From assembly GCF_000314995.1 (NCBI RefSeq), contig NZ_BAEO01000007.1:62001-126000 (forward strand): a stretch of 64,000 nucleotides of DNA, written 5' to 3'. The notes beneath the pieces are model-generated. The model was not told the origin of the DNA. It was given only the letters and a program-made list of their open reading frames with translations, and ran no database searches. The DNA is from Paraglaciecola arctica BSs20135 (GTDB lineage Bacteria > Pseudomonadota > Gammaproteobacteria > Enterobacterales > Alteromonadaceae). Positions 36,357 through 56,631 of this stretch are shown here, piece by piece (positions within the stretch are counted from its first letter, which is position 1; each line of letters begins with the position of its first letter). The position numbers were made by a program, and so were the translations under genes.

Positions 36357-37949
36357 CTATGCTTCAAATATTTTGATTGCAGTTTTAACTCTACCGATTA
36401 CATTTCCAGTGTCATTGATGAATTCATTGGTAAAGCTAATATAGTTGGTATCAGCTAGTAATTGCTCTATCTTGGATCTTATTTCTGTATCATTAAAAGT
36501 TCTTCCTGAAGCAATAACCTTAGCAAAACCTACAGTTACAGCGTCGAACTTGGATAGAAGAAGAGTTCCACTAGTTTTAAATAATGACTCTCCACATGCT
36601 TTTAGAAGTAAGGTGGTGGTTTTATTAAAGAGTTCACTTAGCTCTAACATCTTGTCAGCTATCATATTACGGTTTTCTTCCATATATTTATCAAGAAAAC
36701 TGGGCATAGGTGCCTTGTAATTTTCAACGTTTTCATACAAAGCCAAAAACCTCAAAATAGTTTCAACGTCTTTATACCGACTATGCTCTGCACCAAACAA
36801 ACTGCGCCATGAATCATATTTATTCATATTATGAAGGTGAGTATCAAATGGGCCATAGAATATGCACGATCTAACTTCTTGCGGCTGCAATGCCTTTCCG
36901 CTGGTATTTAACCTTCTGAATATTTGTATGACTGCTTTGTTATACTCATATCCGTAATCAGGGCTATCTGAGGAAGGGTCCGGTTTTATCACAATGCTGT
37001 GCAATATAGAATCGGTTAAAGTCCTTTCATCTGCATCTTCAAGTACTTTAGATTTTATTGTTTTAGCTACTTCACGGTTAAAGTAACATCCACGGAGATC
37101 CTCATGAATTTTCTTACTGTTGGAAATTGGAAACTTACCAGCCAAATATCTCTGGAGTGTTTTTAATCGTTGTTGTCCGTCGATGATATTCATTGTTTTT
37201 GAATCGCCATCTTTTGCTAGAAAGATATTTGGAACAGGTAGGCCAAGAATCAGTGATTCAATAAATCTAGATTGCTCAGTGTTACTCCACACGAATCCAC
37301 GTTGAAATCCTGGCAGTTTGATGTCGCCTCGATTCATTCGTTTCACTAGCCCTTCAACATCGCTATCCCAACCATAGCTAGAAACTTCGAATCGAGATGG
37401 TTCATCAATTTCACTACTAATAGCTTCTTCAACTTCGGTCTCTTTCACGACATTGTCTGTACCTAGGAATTCATTTGGTTCAACATTAATACTGTCTAAT
37501 ATTTCAGATAAATAAGATCCCTCATTTACGTCAAGTTTCTGCTCTTCTGATAGGTTTAAAAGTATGATGGTACTATTTGCAATAAATAGAGCGAAAATCT
37601 GGTTAGGTTCCGCGTAGTCTTTGAATCTTCCTGGCCAAAAACGTTTATCTCCCCTCTGATTTGCACGATATAACGAAACCTTTGTCTCTTCACGTATACC
37701 ACCGCTCAATATGATGCATGGGAACATCACCTTATAGTTAGTTCCAAAAGGCTGAAGGTCAAAATTGTGCACTTGTTCTTGATTCAGTAAATTAGAAATG
37801 GATTCTGTTGCGTCAAAGATATTTTTTGTAAGGCCAGTTGCTGTTACGAAAAGTAGCTCATAATTTATGGATAAACCTTTTAAAATTTCAGTTTTTGTAG
37901 TTTCGACTTGAGTAAGCTTTCGTGTATTCATGTTTATTAGATCCGTCAT
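36357..37949 (-). CDS. DUF262-domain protein with extra N-terminal domain
   Basis: A 530-residue protein. Residues about 195-500 carry the DUF262 (GmrS/ParB-like) motifs: L-P-G-F-Q-R-G-F-V-W near 212-221, the N-x-I-D-G-Q-Q-R-L core near 254-262, and R-R-L-N-T-S-G near 345. In GmrSD-type enzymes this domain hydrolyses nucleotide and licenses cleavage of modified DNA. Residues 1-180 form a separate domain with a V-S-L-Y-R and K-R-F-W-P-G-R pattern that faintly recalls EcoRII-N-type DNA-binding domains; this is uncertain. No C-terminal His-Me nuclease (DUF1524) was seen; the HEPN protein may supply the nuclease. It starts about 45 bases after the stop of the gene upstream. Confidence 0.82.
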   Translation of the reverse strand: MTDLINMNTRKLTQVETTKTEILKGLSINYELLFVTATGLTKNIFDATESISNLLNQEQVHNFDLQPFGTNYKVMFPCIILSGGIREETKVSLYRANQRGDKRFWPGRFKDYAEPNQIFALFIANSTIILLNLSEEQKLDVNEGSYLSEILDSINVEPNEFLGTDNVVKETEVEEAISSEIDEPSRFEVSSYGWDSDVEGLVKRMNRGDIKLPGFQRGFVWSNTEQSRFIESLILGLPVPNIFLAKDGDSKTMNIIDGQQRLKTLQRYLAGKFPISNSKKIHEDLRGCYFNREVAKTIKSKVLEDADERTLTDSILHSIVIKPDPSSDSPDYGYEYNKAVIQIFRRLNTSGKALQPQEVRSCIFYGPFDTHLHNMNKYDSWRSLFGAEHSRYKDVETILRFLALYENVENYKAPMPSFLDKYMEENRNMIADKMLELSELFNKTTTLLLKACGESLFKTSGTLLLSKFDAVTVGFAKVIASGRTFNDTEIRSKIEQLLADTNYISFTNEFINDTGNVIGRVKTAIKIFEA

Positions 37950-37991
37950 TGTATAGTGACTATTTTGTCAATCGCATGATTAGTTAAAATA

Positions 37992-38927
37992 TTAGCTTTG
38001 AATTAAATATTTTGAATGCTCTTTTTGCAAACCAAAGTATGAATAATCGGTCTCTAGCAACGCAACTTGTTTATCAAGCCAACCAATTAAATCTGCCTCA
38101 GGGATATAATCACTTAAATTTCTACCGATGAATTCATTTAGTGAATCAGCCACACCATCTTTAGTGGGCAGTCCCCAATAATTTCCTCCACTTATATTCC
38201 GTACTCTATTCACTGAGGTACTAGTAACCTTATAGTTTTTATCTATGTCTTTTTGTGAAGGTACTGTGACAAATGAGTAAGTAAAACTGGCAAATGATTC
38301 TATAGAGCGGCCCTTTGAACCAACAGTTACATTCCTGCCAAATCCTTTTGCTGAATAAACCATATCCCAGAGCATGGGTATCTGTGCGTTATCATTCCAG
38401 TTAGTCTTTGTTTGGATAACGCCAATTGATATATCTTTCATAGAAAATACAATTGACAAAACACGGTCGAAATATGTTGAAAAAAGCTCCTTTTCACCTT
38501 TTTCTGGCCAATCCTGCACCTTTGGAAAAGCAATATAGATTAAGTCTGCTTCGGTATTCGACTTGAAGTTATTATATTTGACGGCAATAGCATCAGTTAT
38601 AAAGCGAGGTAATAAATCTTTTTTACTTTTTATAACAACAACATTGCTACCAATTAAACATAGGTTCAAATACCAACAGACCAAACTCTCCCATGCAGCC
38701 CCTCCGGCCGATACGCTTGAATTAGTATTTTCACCTACTCGAGTATTTCCTTGAGATGAGGCGTTAAAAATCTCCCTTAGATGATCACCGAGATCAAAGA
38801 TAATCCTACCGGAGAGCCTGTCGTTAGTAATCGTGGAAATATACTTAGCCCAGTGCGGAAATGAATTCTTTGCACTATTTGTCGACATTGCAGACTCAAC
38901 AGCCGCTTTTCGGTAAGACTCAATCAT
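37992..38927 (-). CDS. Putative restriction endonuclease (PD-(D/E)xK-like)
   Basis: A 311-residue protein not recognised by family. The order E80 (in A-A-W-E-S-L-V), D128 (in T-E-A-D-L-I-Y) and Q172-T-K174 (in G-V-I-Q-T-K-T-N-W) with hydrophobic strands around each fits a PD-(D/E)xK nuclease core of the E-D-QxK variety. It is divergent from a cytosine-5 DNA methyltransferase with 260 bases between, the common arrangement of type II restriction-modification pairs. The function is inferred from these two facts only. It begins the minus-strand set that continues with DUF262 and HEPN. Confidence 0.6.
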   Translation of the reverse strand: MIESYRKAAVESAMSTNSAKNSFPHWAKYISTITNDRLSGRIIFDLGDHLREIFNASSQGNTRVGENTNSSVSAGGAAWESLVCWYLNLCLIGSNVVVIKSKKDLLPRFITDAIAVKYNNFKSNTEADLIYIAFPKVQDWPEKGEKELFSTYFDRVLSIVFSMKDISIGVIQTKTNWNDNAQIPMLWDMVYSAKGFGRNVTVGSKGRSIESFASFTYSFVTVPSQKDIDKNYKVTSTSVNRVRNISGGNYWGLPTKDGVADSLNEFIGRNLSDYIPEADLIGWLDKQVALLETDYSYFGLQKEHSKYLIQS

Positions 38928-39187
38928 TAAATTCCCTTAAATTATGATTTATTTAACAGGCAACGATACTAATATGACTTTTCTATAAATACAATTTTCC
39001 TAAAATTTTCAAGATGTTATCATTATCGACTAAATAAAAATTAACTGTTTATATATACAGTGCTATTCTAAAGTACTGAATGGTAACCAGGTAGGAATAC
39101 AGGGGCAGGTTATCTGTAAAATAACTACCTGGACTTTTAGCCTGACATAATTTATCATCTTCGCATTAAATAATGAGTTAGCAATAC

Positions 39188-40849
39188 ATGAACCACATAG
39201 AGCTATTTGCCGGCTGCGGCGGTCTATCCCTTGGACTAGAATCCGAGGGCTTTGACTTATTACTGGCAAATGAATTATCCCCTATGGCAGGAGAGACTTT
39301 TGCTTATAACCACCTTGGGTTAAACCTTGAAGATAACGGTATTAGAGACGACGATCCTGTTTATTGGATTAGTAGCGAGCATCACCGTGATAATTCAGAA
39401 GCTCGACTAAAGGAGAACCCCTACAATGCTGCGGGCCTAAAGAATAGAGAGTCCGATTTAGTTGGATTAGAAAATCATCCAGAAAAATTGCGTGGAAGTT
39501 TATTGATTGGCAGTATTTTAGATCTCAATGTTTTACTGAAAAAAACTAAATTCAAAAAAGCTTTAAGAGAAGGTTTAGGTGATGGTGAGGTCGATCTTGT
39601 TTCTGGAGGCCCTCCTTGCCAGAGCTTTAGCATGGCTGGTATGCGACAGCACTCAAACCAGAGGAACTCCCTCCCATGGGCTTTTGCCGAGTTTGTACGG
39701 CAAGTTAAACCCAAAATGGCGTTACTTGAAAATGTAACTGGAATTCTCCGAGCATTTAATATTGATGGTGAAAAATACTACGCCTGGTACGAAGTAGCAA
39801 AAGCCTTTGCCTTAGAAGGGTATGTACCATTATGCCTGCATGTAAACGCAAAGTATGCTGGAGCAGCACAGAATCGCCCACGCTTTATTATGCTGGCGTT
39901 CCGAAAAAATGTATTTGCCCAAATACTTAAAAATAATACTGATAACGCATTAAGCGAAGCCCTAGAAAATTCTCACCAATTCTTTAAATTGGTATCTAAA
40001 GAAGGTGGCGAACTCGAATATGGCCACCTTAAGTACCATGATGTAGAAAATGGCTCTCCAATCTATAACTCTACAATATTTGAATCTATTGTAGCTATGA
40101 GATCGGCTACAAATAAACTGATAACCACAAAAGAAGCCATTGACGATTTGAATAAAGAAGTAGGCAAGCCCAGCGATTATGTCAACTCTATCAACGGTCA
40201 GGCTTACAAATCAACTGAAGCTAAAGCTCACAGACATAAAGAATGGGAAAAACGATTAACAATAAATGGTAAACCGTCAAATCAAGAACATCGCGGTAAT
40301 AGTAATCGAGTTCGCGCTCGGTTTAGACTCTATCAGGTACTAAATAAATTGGAGTCTAACAATGTAAAAAGAGAGATTAAGTCATTCCTTAAAACTGGCG
40401 ACGATATTCTGATTAGTAATGAATCCTTAGTTATTCTCGCAAATCAAGACTGGCTGCTAACTGAACTTGGTGAACGGGTTGAGCGGCCTGCGCCTAAAGT
40501 TTTGCGCAAACTATTGGCGTCATTACAAACTAAAAAACAAACCCAAAAAGCCTTAGTTGCGGACAAGCCTGCACCAGCAGCATTATCAATACCTGATGAT
40601 GCTTGCCATTATGATGATGAAACTCAGAGAACAATGACAGTCAGAGAAATGGCTAGGTTTCAATCATTCCCAGATTGGTTTGTTTTTCGCTCTAAGGTTA
40701 CAACTGGCGGGCACATGCGAAGGTATCAAGTGCCGCAATATACACAAGTTGGAAATGCCGTTCCCCCTATACTGGGAAAAGCGTTGGGGAAAGTATGCAG
40801 CCAGTTCTTAAAACTATCTGACAAGCAATTAACAAGACAGTCACCATAG
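39188..40849 (+). CDS. DNA (cytosine-5) methyltransferase
   Basis: A 553-residue m5C methyltransferase. Motif I is F-A-G-C-G-G (7-12), motif IV P-P-C-Q with catalytic Cys144, motif VI E-N-V (181-183), motif VIII Q-N-R-P-R-F (228-233), motif IX region M-T-V-R-E-M-A-R-F-Q near 490, and motif X Q-V-G-N-A-V-P-P near 525. The insert between motifs I and IV is long, and the region between VIII and IX (about 250 residues) holds the target-recognition domain; the recognition sequence cannot be read. It probably protects host DNA against the divergent endonuclease-like protein. Confidence 0.95.
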   Translation: MNHIELFAGCGGLSLGLESEGFDLLLANELSPMAGETFAYNHLGLNLEDNGIRDDDPVYWISSEHHRDNSEARLKENPYNAAGLKNRESDLVGLENHPEKLRGSLLIGSILDLNVLLKKTKFKKALREGLGDGEVDLVSGGPPCQSFSMAGMRQHSNQRNSLPWAFAEFVRQVKPKMALLENVTGILRAFNIDGEKYYAWYEVAKAFALEGYVPLCLHVNAKYAGAAQNRPRFIMLAFRKNVFAQILKNNTDNALSEALENSHQFFKLVSKEGGELEYGHLKYHDVENGSPIYNSTIFESIVAMRSATNKLITTKEAIDDLNKEVGKPSDYVNSINGQAYKSTEAKAHRHKEWEKRLTINGKPSNQEHRGNSNRVRARFRLYQVLNKLESNNVKREIKSFLKTGDDILISNESLVILANQDWLLTELGERVERPAPKVLRKLLASLQTKKQTQKALVADKPAPAALSIPDDACHYDDETQRTMTVREMARFQSFPDWFVFRSKVTTGGHMRRYQVPQYTQVGNAVPPILGKALGKVCSQFLKLSDKQLTRQSP

Positions 40850-41382: not shown

Positions 41383-41856
41383 TTATGGGGAGAGTGTTTT
41401 GTCCTTGACTGCTTTTAAAAGATCATCCCATTTTTCAGGTGGAGTACCAGACTTCAACATCTTTTCGAATACTTTGTAAGCATCGGTCTTACTACCATAA
41501 GCTCGTTTATTTTTATCGTCATTTACCCAAGCATAAACGATCACTTTCGACTCTAAGTGGTAGCGGAAAAACAAACGGTATTGTTGGAAGAACTTTGCCC
41601 TAAACCAATGCTTGTTAGCATAACCTAATGTACTTCCTTGACGAAATTCAGAACTGGTAGGGTCGTGTGGTATTAATTCGAAGATTAACCTTTGAATAGC
41701 AGCTAATCGTTTAGTGGCATTTTTCTTAATGTAACCTTTAGGGTCATTTTTACGTAGAGCCTCAACTTGTGTTTTAAGACTCAAATACTGCTCTTTAAAC
41801 AATGGATGAGTGTAAAGTGTCCAACCATTTACCACCATTGGTATCGTTTTTTGCAA
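41383..41856 (-). CDS. yhaV: YhaV-family toxin, copy 1
   Basis: A 157-residue ribosome-dependent mRNA interferase of the YhaV family (RelE superfamily). Characteristic segments are M-V-V-N-G-W-T-L-Y-T-H-P-L-F near the N-terminus, I-P-x-D-P-T-S-S-E-F-R-Q-G-S-T-L-G mid-chain, W-F-R-A-K-F-F-Q-Q-Y-R-L-F-F-R-Y and V-Y-A-W-V-N-D. It is nearly identical to copy 2 at 43849-44322 (a few changes such as Y/F, K/R and the last residues). Its antitoxin partner upstream is truncated, so it is odd that this toxin frame is intact; it may be silenced by lack of a promoter, or neutralised by the second PrlF. Confidence 0.88.
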   Translation of the reverse strand: MQKTIPMVVNGWTLYTHPLFKEQYLSLKTQVEALRKNDPKGYIKKNATKRLAAIQRLIFELIPHDPTSSEFRQGSTLGYANKHWFRAKFFQQYRLFFRYHLESKVIVYAWVNDDKNKRAYGSKTDAYKVFEKMLKSGTPPEKWDDLLKAVKDKTLSP

Positions 41857-43848: not shown

Positions 43849-44322
43849 TTATGGGGTGAGTATTTTGTCCTTGACTGCTTTTAAAAGATCATCCCATTTT
43901 TCAGGTGGAGTACCAGACTTCAGCATCTTTTCGAATACTTTGTAAGCATCGGTCTTACTACCATAAGCTCGTTTATTTTTATCGTCATTTACCCAAGCAT
44001 AAACGATCACTCTCGACTCCAAGTGGAAGCGGAAAAACAAACGGTATTGTTGGAAGAACTTTGCCCTAAACCAATGCTTGTTAGCATAACCTAATGTACT
44101 TCCTTGACGAAATTCAGAACTGGTAGGGTCGTGTGGTATTAATTCGAAGATTAACCTTTGAATAGCGGCTAATCGTTTAGTGGCATTTTTCTTAATGTAA
44201 CCTTTAGGGTCATTTTTACGTAGAGCCTCAACTTGTGTTTTAAGACTCAAATACTGCTCTTTAAACAATGGATGAGTGTAAAGTGTCCAACCATTTACCA
44301 CCATTGGTATTGTTTTTTGCAA
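43849..44322 (-). CDS. yhaV: YhaV-family toxin, copy 2 (intact module)
   Basis: A 157-residue YhaV toxin, nearly identical to the protein at 41383-41856; it keeps all family segments (W-F-R-A-K-F-F-Q-Q-Y-R, V-Y-A-W-V-N-D). It begins 2 bases after the prlF stop region, so the two are coupled. In E. coli PrlF neutralises YhaV and the complex represses the operon; the same is expected here. This copy looks functional, with its antitoxin complete. Confidence 0.92.
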   Translation of the reverse strand: MQKTIPMVVNGWTLYTHPLFKEQYLSLKTQVEALRKNDPKGYIKKNATKRLAAIQRLIFELIPHDPTSSEFRQGSTLGYANKHWFRAKFFQQYRLFFRFHLESRVIVYAWVNDDKNKRAYGSKTDAYKVFEKMLKSGTPPEKWDDLLKAVKDKILTP

Positions 44323-45786: not shown

Positions 45787-45890
45787 GGGGGGCGAACCAA
45801 CTCCGCCCTTAGTTGCATTGCCTTTACCCTTAAAGCGCAGCCATCACCATACCCATTGCTTGCATAAAAACATACATAGTTGCAGCTCTG
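45787..45890 (-). pseudogene. 3' fragment of a second tag gene
   Basis: The minus-strand sequence matches the 3' end of the intact tag gene at 47428-47560, including the frame G-C-A-L-R-V-K-A-M-Q-L-R-A-E-L-V-R-P. It has a short internal deletion (the N-D-H-A segment) and nothing upstream. It is a duplicated scrap. Confidence 0.82.
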
Positions 45891-50038: not shown

Positions 50039-50683
50039 TTACGCTTGTTTTTTAAACCTACGTAAACCTAACCCCATCAAGCCAAATGCAAAAATAGCCG
50101 TGTTAGAAGGAGCAGAAACATCACTCGTGGGTGCTTGAATAGCAAATGACCGCAAGTTATTGAACCCAATGAAGGCGTTGCTAAATTGTATGTATTTTAT
50201 GGTGTTGGATGCGCTGTTGAACCCGAGGTCGAACCCTGAGTTATCTGCCGCTCCAGTGTCGAAGTTTAATGTGTGAGATTCTATCAGAGTAAAACTCTCA
50301 TCAAAAATACTCATTATCGGGATCCCGCCCCATTTCGGGTTATAATTCACAAATGCTAAAACTTCGCTTACCGCGGAGTCAAATTCTATGGTCAGATCAC
50401 CGATTGATTCATTTAGCCCTATCATATCCATTGAATTCCAAGTTCCGTTGGGGTTGAACTTATATGCACCCTCATATCCATATAGTGAATATGAGGATGT
50501 GGATGAATATGTGATGCCACTTTCTGCTATAGTCCCAGCTGTGTAGTAAACACTGCTAATAAACTCATGGGTGGCAGCCCCTGAGGATATGCTGGTTATT
50601 AACCCTGCGTTAGCGATATTGAGCACACAACTGGTAGATAAAATAATGCCTGCGAATAGTGTTTTTAGAAAATTAGATTTCAT
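50039..50683 (-). CDS. Exported PEP-CTERM-type protein 1
   Basis: About 214 residues from ATG 50683 (AGGAAT upstream). A signal peptide ends near N-I-A-N-A-G. The mature part is beta-rich and Ser/Tyr/Asn-rich, with no catalytic motif. The C-terminus is S-A-P-S-N-T-A-I-F-A-F-G-L-M-G-L-G-L-R-R: a P-x-x-hydrophobic helix and basic end, the exosortase sorting signal in a variant (A-P-S-N rather than P-E-P). Such proteins are cleaved and retained by exosortase during export of polysaccharide. The shared motif lies about 160 bases upstream. Confidence 0.82.
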   Translation of the reverse strand: MKSNFLKTLFAGIILSTSCVLNIANAGLITSISSGAATHEFISSVYYTAGTIAESGITYSSTSSYSLYGYEGAYKFNPNGTWNSMDMIGLNESIGDLTIEFDSAVSEVLAFVNYNPKWGGIPIMSIFDESFTLIESHTLNFDTGAADNSGFDLGFNSASNTIKYIQFSNAFIGFNNLRSFAIQAPTSDVSAPSNTAIFAFGLMGLGLRRFKKQA

Positions 50684-51169
50684 TTGATATTCCTTTTTAA
50701 CCAATTCAATTATTTGAACGGCCAACGTTAATAAAATAAGCTACAAACTCCATGATCTAGCGTGCTTTTGCGTGGCGATTTAGCCTAATATTTTGTTTTC
50801 AAAATATTATTTTCGGTGATTATAGAAAGTTTTAAATTGCTCTACTATCCGATTTTCGCAAACCCTAGTTAAATATCTTTAATCTTGAATTGGATTTATT
50901 CTGCAGCGTATTCAGTCATTTTTATTTGACGTAAAAATACATGGTTAGGGAATAGCGTTCGCTGGAGAGTGTTACGAGGATAAAGTTGGCTGCATTTTTC
51001 CAAGTAACTACTTGGAATACCACGCTAGGTGAAATTAGTTGTCACTTAAAATGTGTTTGGATTAAGTCGTTGTATGAGTAATGGTATCAAGGGCGCTTTC
51101 AAACCCCCTTGATTATATGAGTCATGCTGTCTGGTAAAGCATGAGCACTTTTTTAAGACGAGCGGTATA
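50684..51169. promoter_or_regulatory. Upstream region with the shared motif and palindromes
   Basis: Holds the motif CTATCCGATTTTCGCAAA at 50845-50862. Further on are a palindrome with 8-base arms (TCCAAGTA and TACTTGGA, 50999-51016) and two hairpins downstream of PEP-CTERM protein 2: ATCAAGGG (51086-51093) with 51106-51113, and TCATGCT (51122-51128) with 51138-51144. No gene was seen. Confidence 0.65.
50845..50862 (-). promoter_or_regulatory. Shared regulatory motif, site 1 (PEP-CTERM protein 1)
   Basis: The plus-strand sequence CTATCCGATTTTCGCAAA is about 162 bases upstream of the minus-strand start at 50683. A TTAAAT follows 24 bases after the motif start. The sequence is identical at 52770 and 55513. 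Confidence 0.75.
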
Positions 51170-51793
51170 TTAAACGCTATATTTACGACGCATCACGAGG
51201 CCGAATAAACCTAATGCCATCAACAAAACACTAGCAGGCTCTGAGACTTCTGGCGTATCAACAATCAAAGCTTCGCCGAAGTCAAAATCATCTATAGCAA
51301 TAGCAGAATCATTGGGGGAGACTGAATTCCATGAGAAAGTTTTCACATTGTCCCAGCCAGCAAAAACAACTTGTTGCCAAGATGCAGTGATGTCGACCGA
51401 TAGAGAATAAAGCACATTACCGCCTACACCATCTAAACCTTGGAAAAGCACAGTAGCGTCACCCAGCCTAGCATCGGCATGAACAAACAAACTGTTAAGT
51501 GAAAAGTTACCTACATCTCGGGTAAATTCAGCAAATGAATCAGGCGCATTCAGCATAAATTTATCACCGCTATTCGCCGTCGGTGTAGTAAAAAAACACG
51601 TGCTAGTATTATTAAACCCGCCAGAACTAACGCCTGCGCCTGGTCCGGAACGATTACTTAATGTAAACCCATCAACGGTTCCCCCAAAACCTATATTACA
51701 ACTAGAGGGATTCGTCGTAGATTCAAAATCAATCAGAGTGGCATTGGCTGAGGTAATAAATAACCCCAAACATATTACTATTAATTTTTTCAT
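51170..51793 (-). CDS. Exported PEP-CTERM protein 2
   Basis: A 207-residue protein with signal peptide ending near S-A-N-A-T. The N-terminal mature part (F-E-S-T-T-N-P-S-S-C and G-F-G-G-T-V-D-G-F-T-L) is a jelly-roll-like beta domain seen in many PEP-CTERM proteins. The C-terminal sorting signal is S-E-P-A-S-V-L-L-M-A-L-G-L-F-G-L followed by M-R-R-K. It lies between the other two PEP-CTERM genes. No perfect copy of the shared motif is upstream. Confidence 0.87.
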   Translation of the reverse strand: MKKLIVICLGLFITSANATLIDFESTTNPSSCNIGFGGTVDGFTLSNRSGPGAGVSSGGFNNTSTCFFTTPTANSGDKFMLNAPDSFAEFTRDVGNFSLNSLFVHADARLGDATVLFQGLDGVGGNVLYSLSVDITASWQQVVFAGWDNVKTFSWNSVSPNDSAIAIDDFDFGEALIVDTPEVSEPASVLLMALGLFGLVMRRKYSV

Positions 51794-51909
51794 TAAATTT
51801 TCCTTAGTTTAACTGAAGTTAGTCCTATTTCTGCAATTCAAAATTAATTTTAGAGGCAAAATATTTGTTATATCATCTAAATTTAATCTGAAAAAACAGA
51901 CAATGATTA

Positions 51910-52629
51910 TTAACGCTTGGTATTCCAAGTTGTATGTCTACGACGGATCACTAGCCCAAATAATCCTAATGCCATCAATAAGGCACTAGCAGGCGCTGAA
52001 ACTTCATTTACCGGGGCAATGGCGCGTACCAATGCAACGCCATAATATTCTGATGGACCGAATGCTCCCCCTTGGGTATCGCTAAGTAACCTTGCGTATC
52101 CGTTTACTTTGGTATAGTCCGGGTAATCGTCAACGGTATAATCACTGCGAAGCTCTGCAACGTTAGTCTTTCCGTCAGAGTCTGTGTCTAGTCCAAAAAA
52201 TGCGCCAGTGGCATCGACAGGATCTGAAGGAAGTGAAGGATCGCCCCCATATAAAAAGCTAATGCTGAATAAGGTTAAAAACTGTTCAATCGGGTCGCTA
52301 TTGATATCATCTCCCGAGTTCCATGGCGTCACTTGGGTTTGTGATGTATTTTCATTGTCGTCCCAAGGCGTGCTTGCGCCAAAACCAAAGGCATTGAACA
52401 ATCCTGCCATGTGCACATTGGAAGCAACGCCCCAGCCCTGTGAGGCATAAATTGCTAATGCGGAATCAATAGACAGACCTCTTGTTTCATCCCACTGTAA
52501 CCATTCCAAACCGCCGCTGGTGACAATGTTAGTAGCTTCATCGAGGGTATAGTCGTTGTAAGTAACCAATGCAGCATTAGCAAAACTACATGTGCATAAT
52601 AAACCTAAGCCAAGCAGTACTTTTTTCAT
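51910..52629 (-). CDS. Exported PEP-CTERM protein 3
   Basis: A 239-residue protein with a signal peptide ending near F-A-N-A-A. A domain with Y-T-L-D-E-A-T-N-I-V-T-S-G-G-L-E-W-L-Q-W resembles the PEP-CTERM-associated domain with repeated W-L-Q-W. The C-terminal signal is S-A-P-A-S-A-L-L-M-A-L-G-L-F-G-L then R-R-R. The sorting helices of proteins 2 and 3 are almost the same, which suggests one sortase. The shared motif is 141 bases upstream (52770). Confidence 0.87.
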   Translation of the reverse strand: MKKVLLGLGLLCTCSFANAALVTYNDYTLDEATNIVTSGGLEWLQWDETRGLSIDSALAIYASQGWGVASNVHMAGLFNAFGFGASTPWDDNENTSQTQVTPWNSGDDINSDPIEQFLTLFSISFLYGGDPSLPSDPVDATGAFFGLDTDSDGKTNVAELRSDYTVDDYPDYTKVNGYARLLSDTQGGAFGPSEYYGVALVRAIAPVNEVSAPASALLMALGLFGLVIRRRHTTWNTKR

Positions 52630-52769
52630 CCGTTTTACCTATATATTGAGGACTTGATAATTGTTGAAGGTTGTAATGACAGTTGTCGACATAGCAACAA
52701 CAATCAAACCAATATTTAGATTTCAAGAGTAAGTTTTGAGCGGATGATAACTATTTCAAAATCAAGCCA

Positions 52770-52787
52770 CTATCCGATTTTCGCAAA
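52770..52787 (-). promoter_or_regulatory. Shared regulatory motif, site 2 (PEP-CTERM protein 3)
   Basis: Identical 18-base motif; TTAAAT follows 25 bases after its start. It lies between the minus-strand gene at 52629 and the 3' end of the histidine kinase gene. Confidence 0.78.
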
Positions 52788-52920
52788 ACTGAAATTAAAT
52801 CACGGGCATTTTTATTGATTTTTCAAAGAATGCCTATCAACCGAAAGGATGATTTTGAGGTAGAGAATTATAATTTTAGTAAGGTTTGAATTTTGTATAT
52901 TTGTGTTATTTAGACGTTTT

Positions 52921-54654
52921 CTAATGAATAAGATGACTCATAGCTATGCGTAATTGTGCGGGTTTAATCGGTTTGGTTAGCCTGACTTGTTTGGCTGCAT
53001 TGATTTCAGCGATGACGTCGTTACCTGTATCGCCGGTCAAAATTATCCCAGGAATATCACCGACTTGTTGTTGAATAAGCTTTATCAGTTCACAACCATT
53101 TATGTCACCCGGCATTCTATAATCTGCAAGTATAATGTCTGGTTGGTAACCGTCTTGAATAAGTTTGAGAGCTTTCTTAGTGGAATCGGCGCTGGTGGCG
53201 TGGCTCCCCCAACTGACAATAATGTTTTCCATGGCTTGTAAAATCTGTACTTCGTTGTCGATGACCATCACTTTTAAATTATTGAGTTTGTCTTTTAGTG
53301 CTGGATGCGAGGGCTTATGTTTATTTTGCTCAGTTTGTTTGCCTTTGGGAAGTACAACAATAAACTCCGTTCCTTTGCCTAATTTTGTTGTAAAGCTGAG
53401 TTGGTAATTAAGCCTTTGAGATATTCTTTTTACAATCGCCAACCCAAGGCCAAGCCCTTTATTTCTATCGCGTTCTGGGTTGTTTAATTGATAAAACTCG
53501 TTAAATATTTGTTCTTTATCTGCTTGTGGTATGCCGATGCCCGTATCGCGGATATGCAGCTGTAAATTGTTATTATTCTGGGTGCAATGAATGTTAATTT
53601 CACCCTGTTTAGTATAACGAATCGCATTCGATAAGAGGTTACGTATGACTTGTTCAAGAAGAACGGGGTCGGTATAAACAAAATGCTCGCAATCTTTTAT
53701 CACTAGTTTTAGCTGTTTATTTGCCGCTTGGATTGAATACTGCTCAATCCATTTAGACATGAGTAGCGCAAGTGAAAAATTGCTGTTGCTTATGCGTAAC
53801 GTATTTGAGTCAATTTGGGTGATATCGAGTAACGCATTGAAAAGTTCATCTAAAGAATCCAGTCCGTGTCGAATATGCATGAGATCGCTTTTTTGATCGT
53901 TGGTTGTTATTTTTTGCTCTAAGGTTTCTACAAATAAATTAACCGCATGTAATGGCTGGCGAAGATCGTGACTGGCTGCAGCGAGAAACCTCGATTTATC
54001 AATGTTGGCCTTGTTGGCCGTTTCGGTTTGTTTTTTTAAGTCTGTGACGAGGTCGATATTTTGGTACTTCAATTCGAGAGAGTTATTAATAACACGATGC
54101 ATATTGCGGCTAAACACAAAACTTATAGCCATATAAATGAGAATGCCAAAACAAGACCACATATAAAGTAGACTATCTTGCAAAAACATCATGATAACAA
54201 TGGGCGCACTAGCCGGGAAAGCAAAGGCGGCATGGGTTAAAGGCCTAGATGATAGTGCAATCATGCTAGCCCCAATCACCACTATCAGTGTGAGTAGAAT
54301 GGCGGTAAAGGTTTCTAATAATTCAGGTCGAAAAAATAACAATGCGACGCTGCCCCAGAGCAGTCCTGCAATTAATGCGGTTATTGTATACGCTTTGCCT
54401 TGACGATAAATTTGCTCGATAGATGCGTTTTTACTATCGAATGAGCGTTGGTGTATCCATCGCGCAAACGTCAGTAAATAGATGCTGCCAACCCAAGATA
54501 ATATTTTGAAGGGGGACTCACTGTCCCAAAGTACACTCGCAAGTGGAATACAGCCTATTGCGTTGCCAATTAAAGTAACTGGCATATTATCGTGAACAAT
54601 TAAAATTTTATCGGCAATGATCCTATCTGTATGAGAGTTTTCTGTTGTTATGAT
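52921..54654 (-). CDS. Hybrid sensor histidine kinase/response regulator
   Basis: From the N-terminus: about six membrane helices (residues 1-170), a HisKA domain with phospho-acceptor S-H-D-L-R-Q-P, an HATPase with N-L-L-S-N-A-I-R-Y, D-T-G-I-G-I-P and G-L-G-L-G-L-A, and a C-terminal receiver with phospho-Asp in I-L-A-D-Y-R-M-P. The first ATG is at 54585 and has no ribosome-binding site. The frame is open upstream and encodes R-I-I-A-D-K-I-L-I-V-H-D-N, as in relatives, back to an ATC at 54654 with GGAG 8 bases upstream. The start may therefore be non-AUG. No His-phosphotransfer domain is present; it probably pairs with the NarL-type regulator just upstream. Confidence 0.85.
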   Translation of the reverse strand: MITTENSHTDRIIADKILIVHDNMPVTLIGNAIGCIPLASVLWDSESPFKILSWVGSIYLLTFARWIHQRSFDSKNASIEQIYRQGKAYTITALIAGLLWGSVALLFFRPELLETFTAILLTLIVVIGASMIALSSRPLTHAAFAFPASAPIVIMMFLQDSLLYMWSCFGILIYMAISFVFSRNMHRVINNSLELKYQNIDLVTDLKKQTETANKANIDKSRFLAAASHDLRQPLHAVNLFVETLEQKITTNDQKSDLMHIRHGLDSLDELFNALLDITQIDSNTLRISNSNFSLALLMSKWIEQYSIQAANKQLKLVIKDCEHFVYTDPVLLEQVIRNLLSNAIRYTKQGEINIHCTQNNNNLQLHIRDTGIGIPQADKEQIFNEFYQLNNPERDRNKGLGLGLAIVKRISQRLNYQLSFTTKLGKGTEFIVVLPKGKQTEQNKHKPSHPALKDKLNNLKVMVIDNEVQILQAMENIIVSWGSHATSADSTKKALKLIQDGYQPDIILADYRMPGDINGCELIKLIQQQVGDIPGIILTGDTGNDVIAEINAAKQVRLTKPIKPAQLRIAMSHLIH

Positions 54655-54718
54655 GGTAAATACTCCATAAAACCAATGTTATGTAAGCGTGTTAGAGCGG
54701 TACTAAAACAAAAATAAA

Positions 54719-55342
54719 TTAGTCTAACCCCAGTTGTTGTGCTTTTTTAATGGCTTCTGTTCTGCTTTGGGTGCCCAGAGCTTGAAAAATGGCTACTATA
54801 TGCGTTTTGACTGTGGCCAGACTCAGAAATAGCTGCTCGGCAATCGCCTTATTTGACAAGCCGTGACGTATCAAGCGCAACACTTCTAATTGTCTAATAG
54901 TCAGATTATGTTGGCTAGCCCAATCAGTAGATGTTGAATTGAGAGTATTTGACTGGTTATTATTGCTCGGTTTCACAATTTCGCCTCGTAGCACCGATTC
55001 AATGGCATGTTGTATTTGTTTGCCATTAGATGACTTAGAAACAAACCCCATTGCCCCTAATTCAAGGGTTTTATCCACATCCCATGGATCTTCAGATGCA
55101 GTCACCATAATGATGGGCGTTAAACACAGTGATTTGGACAATTCTTCAAGTAGGCTAAACCCATCAATTCCGGGTAACCGCAGATCAATCAATGCCACGT
55201 CATAGGCATTATTCGACAGTTTCTCCAGTGCCTGATGCCCATTACTCACACACTCGAATTCGACATCCGAGAATATGTTTTTCAAAACTGACCGTATCCC
55301 TTCAAGAAATAGGTGATGGTCATCTGCAAGTAATACTTTCAT
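54719..55342 (-). CDS. NarL/FixJ-type response regulator
   Basis: A 207-residue response regulator from ATG 55342. The receiver domain has the acidic pair D-D near the N-terminus (L-L-A-D-D-H-H) and phospho-Asp in V-A-L-I-D-L-R-L-P-G, then T-A-S-E and a Lys in V-S-K-S. The LuxR helix-turn-helix (last 65 residues) has L-T-I-R-Q-L-E-V-L-R-L-I and N-K-A-I-A-E-Q-L-F-L-S-L-A-T-V-K-T-H. It is upstream of the hybrid kinase on the same strand. The shared motif at 55513 lies about 170 bases before its start, which suggests autoregulation. Confidence 0.9.
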   Translation of the reverse strand: MKVLLADDHHLFLEGIRSVLKNIFSDVEFECVSNGHQALEKLSNNAYDVALIDLRLPGIDGFSLLEELSKSLCLTPIIMVTASEDPWDVDKTLELGAMGFVSKSSNGKQIQHAIESVLRGEIVKPSNNNQSNTLNSTSTDWASQHNLTIRQLEVLRLIRHGLSNKAIAEQLFLSLATVKTHIVAIFQALGTQSRTEAIKKAQQLGLD

Positions 55343-55512
55343 GGAGCCTGAGTATGGCATTAATAAAATCCAGAATAAAATCAACCTTTTGATTGATGTT
55401 GCTTTAGATGAATTATCTGTAAATTATGAGTCGCTCAACATAGTCAGTCCTCTTAATTAATTAAATGGGAGGATACTTTAGTTTTAAGAATATAAGACCT
55501 TAAATCTAAGGG

Positions 55513-55530
55513 CTATCCGATTTTCGCAAA
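55513..55530 (-). promoter_or_regulatory. Shared regulatory motif, site 3 (response regulator)
   Basis: Identical 18-base motif in the divergent region between the response regulator (start 55342) and the AraC gene (start 55660). TTAAAT follows 26 bases after its start. Orientation relative to the minus-strand gene is the same as at the other two sites. Confidence 0.78.
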
Positions 55531-55659
55531 AAAGGAATTTAAATTTTGGAGGGGTTAACTCTTGCGTAAAAGGGAGAGGGGGTAGTCTTTACATTATTGT
55601 AGGTTGTCAATTCCTGCATTGGGAAGTCATTATGAATTTATGTTGTATCAGTGGTGATT

Positions 55660-56631
55660 ATGCTTAAGCAAAGTACTCTTTTTCGCAAACTACCTTTATT
55701 TGATGCATGTGAACAGCAGTCGGCACAAAATTGGTTACCATTAGAGATAACTCAACTTTCGGCTGGCCCATATCAAGGTCAATTACGTGAAATTCAACAT
55801 CATGATGTCAGTGTGTTTTTTGAACAGCAAAACTGCATGGTTCATAAACGAGGCATAATGGTTGACCCATTTTGTACCGTTTCTTTTGCTCGCTCGACTA
55901 ACGCACAAGTACGTCTCTCTGAATATGATTCACAAGATAACTCTTTGTTTTTTATTCCCAGTGAAAGTGAGGTGGATGTTCAAGTTGCTGGTGATGTTGA
56001 AACTGTGTATTTTCGGTTTAATCAAGCAAAGTTTCTTGAGCGAGCAAGAGCTATCTCACCGCAATACTGGGCGACAGTGCCAGACAGTGCCTTGATTTTT
56101 GAATCACCTCTTAGAAAATCATTGGAGGTCTTTTCACATCACCTTTATTCACATCCTTTATTTCAATCTGATGCTGAGGTGACCAATGATAATCAAGGGC
56201 TGTGTTCATTTATTATGGACAGATTGTTATTAGCATTAGATGAGTCATCTGTTAATCATGATGTCCGTCAAGATTTGATAGCGCGGTACCGCGCTAAAGA
56301 ACGAGTTAATCAAGCATTAGACTATATCCATGGAGTGCTTGAAAATGAAGGTTGCCCCAGTATTGTGGATATATGTGTTGAAATGAACATAAGTCAGCGC
56401 AATCTACAGTACAGTTTTAAAAAGATATTAGGCTTCACGCCTAATGTTTATCTCTATCATCTTCGACTAAATCGTGCTCGTGCCCAACTGATAAAAGCTG
56501 ATAACAATAATATCACGGTGACTCAGGTTGCAATGTATTGGCAGTTTTGGCATTTAGGGCGATTTTCTAATGACTATCTAAGGTTATTTGGTGAATTACC
56601 TTCTGTTACTTTATCCAGAGTACTCACTTAA
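55660..56631 (+). CDS. AraC-family transcriptional regulator (EutR-like architecture)
   Basis: About 323 residues from ATG 55660 (a GTG at 55651 is also possible). An N-terminal AraC-binding-like sensor (residues 15-170) is followed by an AraC helix-turn-helix (last 100 residues) with I-V-D-I-C-V-E-M-N-I-S-Q-R-N-L-Q-Y-S-F-K-K and G-F-T-P-N-V-Y-L. The second helix-turn-helix has V-A-M-Y-W-Q-F-W-H-L-G-R-F-S-N-D-Y, the EutR-type signature W-x-F-x-H-x-G-x-F. Its ligand is unknown. It is divergent from the two-component genes. Confidence 0.88.
   Translation: MLKQSTLFRKLPLFDACEQQSAQNWLPLEITQLSAGPYQGQLREIQHHDVSVFFEQQNCMVHKRGIMVDPFCTVSFARSTNAQVRLSEYDSQDNSLFFIPSESEVDVQVAGDVETVYFRFNQAKFLERARAISPQYWATVPDSALIFESPLRKSLEVFSHHLYSHPLFQSDAEVTNDNQGLCSFIMDRLLLALDESSVNHDVRQDLIARYRAKERVNQALDYIHGVLENEGCPSIVDICVEMNISQRNLQYSFKKILGFTPNVYLYHLRLNRARAQLIKADNNNITVTQVAMYWQFWHLGRFSNDYLRLFGELPSVTLSRVLT

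Follow-up and report, generated by a model that had tools for sequence, protein, structure and literature searches.

Control of genes encoding PEP-CTERM proteins has been described by Haft et al. (PMC1569441) as a network of PrsK, the NtrC-type regulator PrsR and sigma-54, with a common element upstream of PEP-CTERM genes; further regulatory proteins and DNA motifs are expected there, since many PEP-CTERM upstream regions lack the sigma-54 element. RpoN dependence was shown for one PEP-CTERM gene in Aquincola (PMC9850573), and five predicted PEP-CTERM targets of the Desulfovibrio vulgaris response regulator DVUA0057 were enriched in DNA-affinity-purified chip (DAP-chip) analysis (PMC3333781). 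EpsA (TIGR03020, NCBIfam) is a LuxR-type regulator associated with XrtB and PEP-CTERM. Activators of the AraC/XylS type are described for aromatic catabolism: XylS at promoter Pm of the TOL plasmid pWW0 and BenR at Pben recognize the box consensus TGCA-N6-GGNTA (PMC4225500, PMC1360089, PMC6449761), which is the same for both proteins (PMC6449761). Among the open-licence papers listed in literature searches, no report was noticed of an AraC-type regulator or a NarL-type response regulator controlling PEP-CTERM genes. Here, we analyzed a 64,000-nucleotide stretch of Paraglaciecola arctica BSs20135 (contig NZ_BAEO01000007.1, positions 62,001 to 126,000 of the forward strand; hereafter the window), in which an 18-bp sequence, predicted to be a transcription operator, lies upstream of PEP-CTERM genes, whose products are predicted to be secreted to the cell surface, and of a putative response-regulator/hybrid-kinase operon.

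The window was scanned for the 18-mer CTATCCGATTTTCGCAAA, the gene-strand form of which is TTTGCGAAAATCGGATAG. Three exact copies were found at 50845-50862, 52770-52787 and 55513-55530, all on the plus strand as given in a preliminary description of this DNA; no further site matched with up to three mismatches. All copies are intergenic and located upstream of minus-strand genes. The distance from motif start to start codon, previously given as 140-170 bases, was 162 (ATG 50683), 141 (ATG 52629) and 171 (ATG 55342), and TTAAAT was indeed found on the plus strand 24, 25 and 26 bases past the motif start. At up to three mismatches, shuffled windows contained 0.10 matches on average, and three or more matches occurred in none of 100 shuffles, in agreement with the earlier judgment that a chance origin is very unlikely. 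Across all 72 contigs of the genome (5.96 Mb), the 18-mer has no exact copy besides these three. The next-best places, four with three mismatches each, are background, because a reversed-pattern control yielded 10 matches; none of the four has a -10 box at the offset described below (32 flanking bases checked) or coincides with a PEP-CTERM match. Scattered matches, which the preliminary description had named as the mark of a mere interspersed repeat, were thus not found, and the 18-mer has the appearance of an operator rather than of a dispersed repeat. With up to one mismatch, it occurred in two of 295 family genomes, P. arctica itself and G094, where the near-copy lies inside a coding sequence and was discarded as a chance match. 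A site with four mismatches upstream of one PEP-CTERM gene (L060) lies on the opposite strand and was set aside; by a rough estimate of ours, such a site is presumably expected by chance.

On the gene strand, each 18-mer is followed by exactly 20 nt and then by a -10-like box: TATAAT at 50819-50824 for copy 1, TATCAT at 52744-52749 for copy 2 and TATTCT at 55487-55492 for copy 3, the latter with an alternative TATATT at 18 nt. This strict spacing had not been noticed in the preliminary description. It was first seen by eye and tested afterwards: with offsets of 10-30 searched, an equally good result was obtained in 3 of 5000 shuffled flanks, the shuffle preserving dinucleotides only approximately. 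In the reverse orientation the best common -10 offset scored 10, as compared to 15 in gene orientation. Furthermore, 8 of 30 columns are invariant on the promoter side and 3 of 30 on the upstream side, against a shuffled mean of 2.7 for either. TTAAAT may therefore be incidental; it lies upstream in gene orientation, where ungapped invariant columns remain at chance level.

Given a -10 box at this position, the 18-mer covers about -50 to -33 with its center near -41.5, and the presumed -35 hexamers TAGTAG, TAGTGG and TAGCCC are poor. An activator site centered near -41.5 combined with a poor -35 is the layout of a class II activator-dependent promoter. When the region was scanned for generic sigma-70 promoters, promoter-like sites were no more numerous than in shuffled sequence, and the three motif/-10 pairs were not listed, as expected if their -35 hexamers are poor. 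The 18-mer is thus very probably the transcription operator of three local promoters. It would serve as an activator operator at sigma-70-type promoters of a PEP-CTERM-like gene, of a PEP-CTERM gene pair and of the response-regulator/hybrid-kinase operon; an activator centered near -41.5 and overlapping the poor -35 would recruit RNA polymerase by class II activation.

The genome was also examined for the PrsR/sigma-54 system. At E up to 1, it yielded 26 PEP-CTERM matches, of which 21 exceed the Pfam cut-off; there is also a single exosortase match, located on another contig, and one PrsR (690 bits; curated cut-off 502.6). Three of the 26 matches were dropped because they had no credible start. 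Among the remaining 23, a -24(GG)/-12(GC) pattern, tightened after a first look, was found within 350 nt upstream of 11, all belonging to the 21 outside the locus; the reverse-complement control gave 0 of 23, and the pattern was absent from all four upstream regions at the locus. Conversely, for the 21 scored PEP-CTERM genes outside the locus, nothing nearer to the 18-mer than four mismatches was present within 350 nt upstream; the 18-mer thus does not define a general PEP-CTERM regulon. Since the sigma-54 pattern is missing locally and present at 11 of 21 genes elsewhere, where the 18-mer in turn is missing, the PEP-CTERM genes of the locus do not appear to belong to the PrsR/sigma-54 network. 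The locus resembles the system of Haft et al. (PMC1569441) in a common element upstream of PEP-CTERM genes, and PrsR also occurs in P. arctica. It differs by TATAAT-type -10 boxes in place of -24/-12 elements, by a set of three promoters rather than a genome-wide one and by a candidate regulator of AraC or NarL type rather than NtrC type.

In all three copies, the 18-mer contains TGCG-N6-GGATA, which agrees with the XylS/BenR-type box at seven of eight positions. Matches of this quality occurred at 53 of about 128,000 window positions, and the complete layout TGCR-N6-GGNTA-N21-TATNNT was found in the window only at the three operator copies. From GGATA to the -10-like box there are 21 nt in every copy. 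The proximal box of pWW0 Pm, TGCAAAAAATGGCTA, is likewise followed by 21 nt and then by TAGGCT, which we take to be the -10 of Pm. The proximal Pm box overlaps the -35 by two bases (PMC4225500), and this overlap is reproduced here if a 17-bp spacer is assumed. A gene for an AraC-family regulator (55651-56631, plus strand) is encoded divergently, its start being 121 bases from the end of operator copy 3. Its product matched HTH_18 with 66.5 bits and contains a XylS-like double helix-turn-helix (HTH); across 75 amino acids of the HTH region, its identity with XylS is 41%, with HLGRF and FGELPS.TL common to both proteins. The layout of the 18-mer somewhat favors an AraC/XylS-type activator over a response regulator, and with slightly better than even probability it is this AraC/XylS-type protein that binds the 18-mer. 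It would read TGCG-N6-GGATA as a XylS-type box and would activate exosortase substrates along with a dedicated two-component system.

Several points weigh against this assignment. XylS binds two direct repeats, whereas the box is single here: at none of the three copies does a second box scoring at least 5/8 lie 21 nt upstream. The fourth base is G instead of A in all three copies, and the N-terminal half of the AraC protein lacks a Pfam ligand domain; PF14525 (AraC_binding_2) was found in XylS only of the two. Even for the XylS relative AntR, such a box was reportedly not found (PMC1360089). The idea of this box arose after the motif had been seen and was checked afterwards, and with three invariant copies the contact bases are indistinguishable. 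Moreover, a search of 394 other family genomes at E 1e-45 yielded no relative of the AraC gene, so the link between protein and motif rests on one genome. Apart from these points, the proposed targets differ from those of XylS and BenR, being PEP-CTERM and two-component genes and not genes of aromatic catabolism. As to the AraC gene itself, no -10 was found at the equal offset in its own direction (GGGGTT), and AraC autoregulation is therefore not suggested.

The preliminary description had read the motif as a local PEP-CTERM regulon with an autoregulated response regulator, that is, the phosphorylated NarL-type protein would bind the 18-mer and activate the flanking PEP-CTERM genes in addition to its own operon. 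The local regulon has stood, as a set of promoters for PEP-CTERM genes and for the two-component operon. The response regulator as its likeliest binder has become doubtful, because the 18-mer has no significant dyad (at best 5 paired positions, equalled by 23% of composition shuffles), the orthologues lack the 18-mer, and a XylS-type box with its spacing as well as an adjoining AraC gene are present. Nevertheless, autoregulation is common for response-regulator operons, one such operon is among the three targets, and position -41.5 would also suit a NarL/LuxR-type activator. Response-regulator matches at E 1e-40 or better were found in two of 394 other family genomes, G062 and G125, where a PEP-CTERM gene (26% identity) adjoins an orthologous response regulator (49%) and kinase (44% and 43%) and an orthologue of the window AraC gene is missing, which ties the two-component system to PEP-CTERM genes. 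In these loci, the best site between the PEP-CTERM and response-regulator genes differs from the 18-mer at 7 of 18 positions, despite the segment QLFLSLATVK(T/S)H shared by the proteins; past this segment the residues differ (THIVAIFQAL in the window protein, SHISTLF(R/K)VL in the orthologues), which could shift specificity. Both genomes have a conserved 25-bp block, ATTTCATACTTTYGGTYAGTTATTT, upstream of the PEP-CTERM gene (L087:9505-9529 and L088:10387-10411; one copy per genome within three mismatches), a candidate site for the orthologous response regulator. It matches the 18-mer at 11/18 positions in G062 and 9/18 in G125, so that a diverged site is conceivable; the 25-mer was rejected as the own site of the window response regulator, as the P. 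arctica genome contains no copy within three mismatches. Binding by the response regulator is therefore regarded as the less probable alternative.

Compared with these two neighbors, a regulator encoded elsewhere in the genome is an unlikely binder: P. arctica is rich in regulators, with at least 31 response-regulator matches, but all exact copies of the 18-mer are located within 4.7 kb of the two local regulator genes. Exact identity of the three copies could also point to a dispersed repeat or to recent promoter duplications without regulatory meaning, and a repeat finder merged motif and -10 into a single unit of 45 nt, two copies of which are 73% and 67% identical to the reference copy. 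This explanation is highly improbable in view of upstream flanks with invariant columns at chance level, the lack of further exact genomic copies and the constant position of the 18-mer within the promoter. The divergently encoded AraC/XylS-type protein thus remains the favored binder.

The two-component proteins resemble NarL/VraR response regulators with NahK/ErcS-like hybrid kinases in domain architecture and tandem gene order; they differ from them in being linked to PEP-CTERM genes and rare. The HTH of the G062 response-regulator orthologue also weakly matches EpsA; at 53.5 bits this match falls far short of the EpsA cut-off (170 bits), and it is restricted to the HTH ends of the two proteins. 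Next to more distant response-regulator relatives, namely 9 of 11 checked at class level (38-43% identity) and G262 within the family, no recognizable PEP-CTERM gene was adjacent; the few tail-pattern matches in these places look like frame noise. A scan of 84,980 species for the response regulator by a weak method (six exact 8-residue patterns) returned three uninformative loci with 25-33% identity. In G062, the PEP-CTERM gene is also accompanied by an AraC-family gene; this is FeaR-like (99.8 bits), not close to the window AraC protein and missing in G125, and it was given no weight.

Operator copy 1 lies upstream of a gene (50039-50683, minus strand) for a PEP-CTERM-like protein with a signal-peptide-like start and the variant tail SAPSNTA...RRFKKQA. 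This product had no Pfam or NCBIfam match at 1e-3. That its tail is a variant not represented among the Pfam PEP-CTERM matches had escaped the preliminary description. Copy 2 lies upstream of the PEP-CTERM gene 51910-52629 (minus strand; 21.5 bits, cut-off 20.7, no Pfam match at 1e-3 in a separate search); it is this gene that is distantly homologous to the PEP-CTERM gene next to the response regulator of the two other genomes. A third PEP-CTERM gene, also overlooked previously, was identified at 51170-51793 (minus strand; PF07589, 25.8 bits). It begins about 116 bp after 51910-52629, has no 18-mer of its own and is probably the second gene of a unit starting at copy 2. Around the sorting signal, the two tandem genes are 84% identical at DNA level along a 73-nt segment (51178-51250 and 51933-52005).

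Copy 3 is located between the divergent AraC gene and the gene for the NarL/VraR-type response regulator (54719-55342, minus strand; assigned by domain matches). The long leader of the latter contains a tiny open reading frame, ATG TTG AGC GAC TCA TAA (55424-55441, minus strand), behind GAGGA. The hybrid histidine kinase (52921-54585, minus strand) has HisKA, HATPase_c and receiver domains and a NahK/ErcS-like C-terminal part. Its frame is open upstream of the first ATG at 54585 (window 52921-54620, minus strand), and the stretch ADKILIVHDN encoded there is similar to AKDKVLFLYKN, with which the G062 kinase begins. As no in-frame ATG, GTG or TTG precedes this stretch, the true kinase start may be a rare codon.

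Other features were observed farther away in the window. Two copies of a YhaV-type toxin gene (41383-41856 and 43849-44322) share 98% DNA identity and are 2.5 kb apart from start to start. A 40-nt repeat at 45789 and 47431 (4 mismatches) reads into the ends of neighboring open reading frames; we would guess that these are integron attC-like sites. The region 36357-40849 is possibly a restriction-modification island: a gene for a GmrSD-like restriction protein lies there next to a gene that has no Pfam match and to a C5 cytosine methylase gene in divergent orientation.

At this locus a known activator architecture precedes genes whose class is otherwise associated with sigma-54, and the 18-mer set may form a small circuit of its own, separate from the regulation usual for PEP-CTERM genes. 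A tentative extension, which we hold to be somewhat less probable than its opposite, is a second, sigma-70-based control: an AraC/XylS-type activator would have withdrawn a few PEP-CTERM genes from PrsR/sigma-54 control and linked them to a two-component system of their own, so that a subset of surface proteins would be switched at two tiers. The locus thus provides a three-promoter candidate with a defined 18-bp site and two adjoining regulators, and the PrsR-type system also encoded by P. arctica serves as an internal contrast. If the proposed circuit is correct, subsets of surface proteins would be switched separately, by a small molecule or by a two-component signal.

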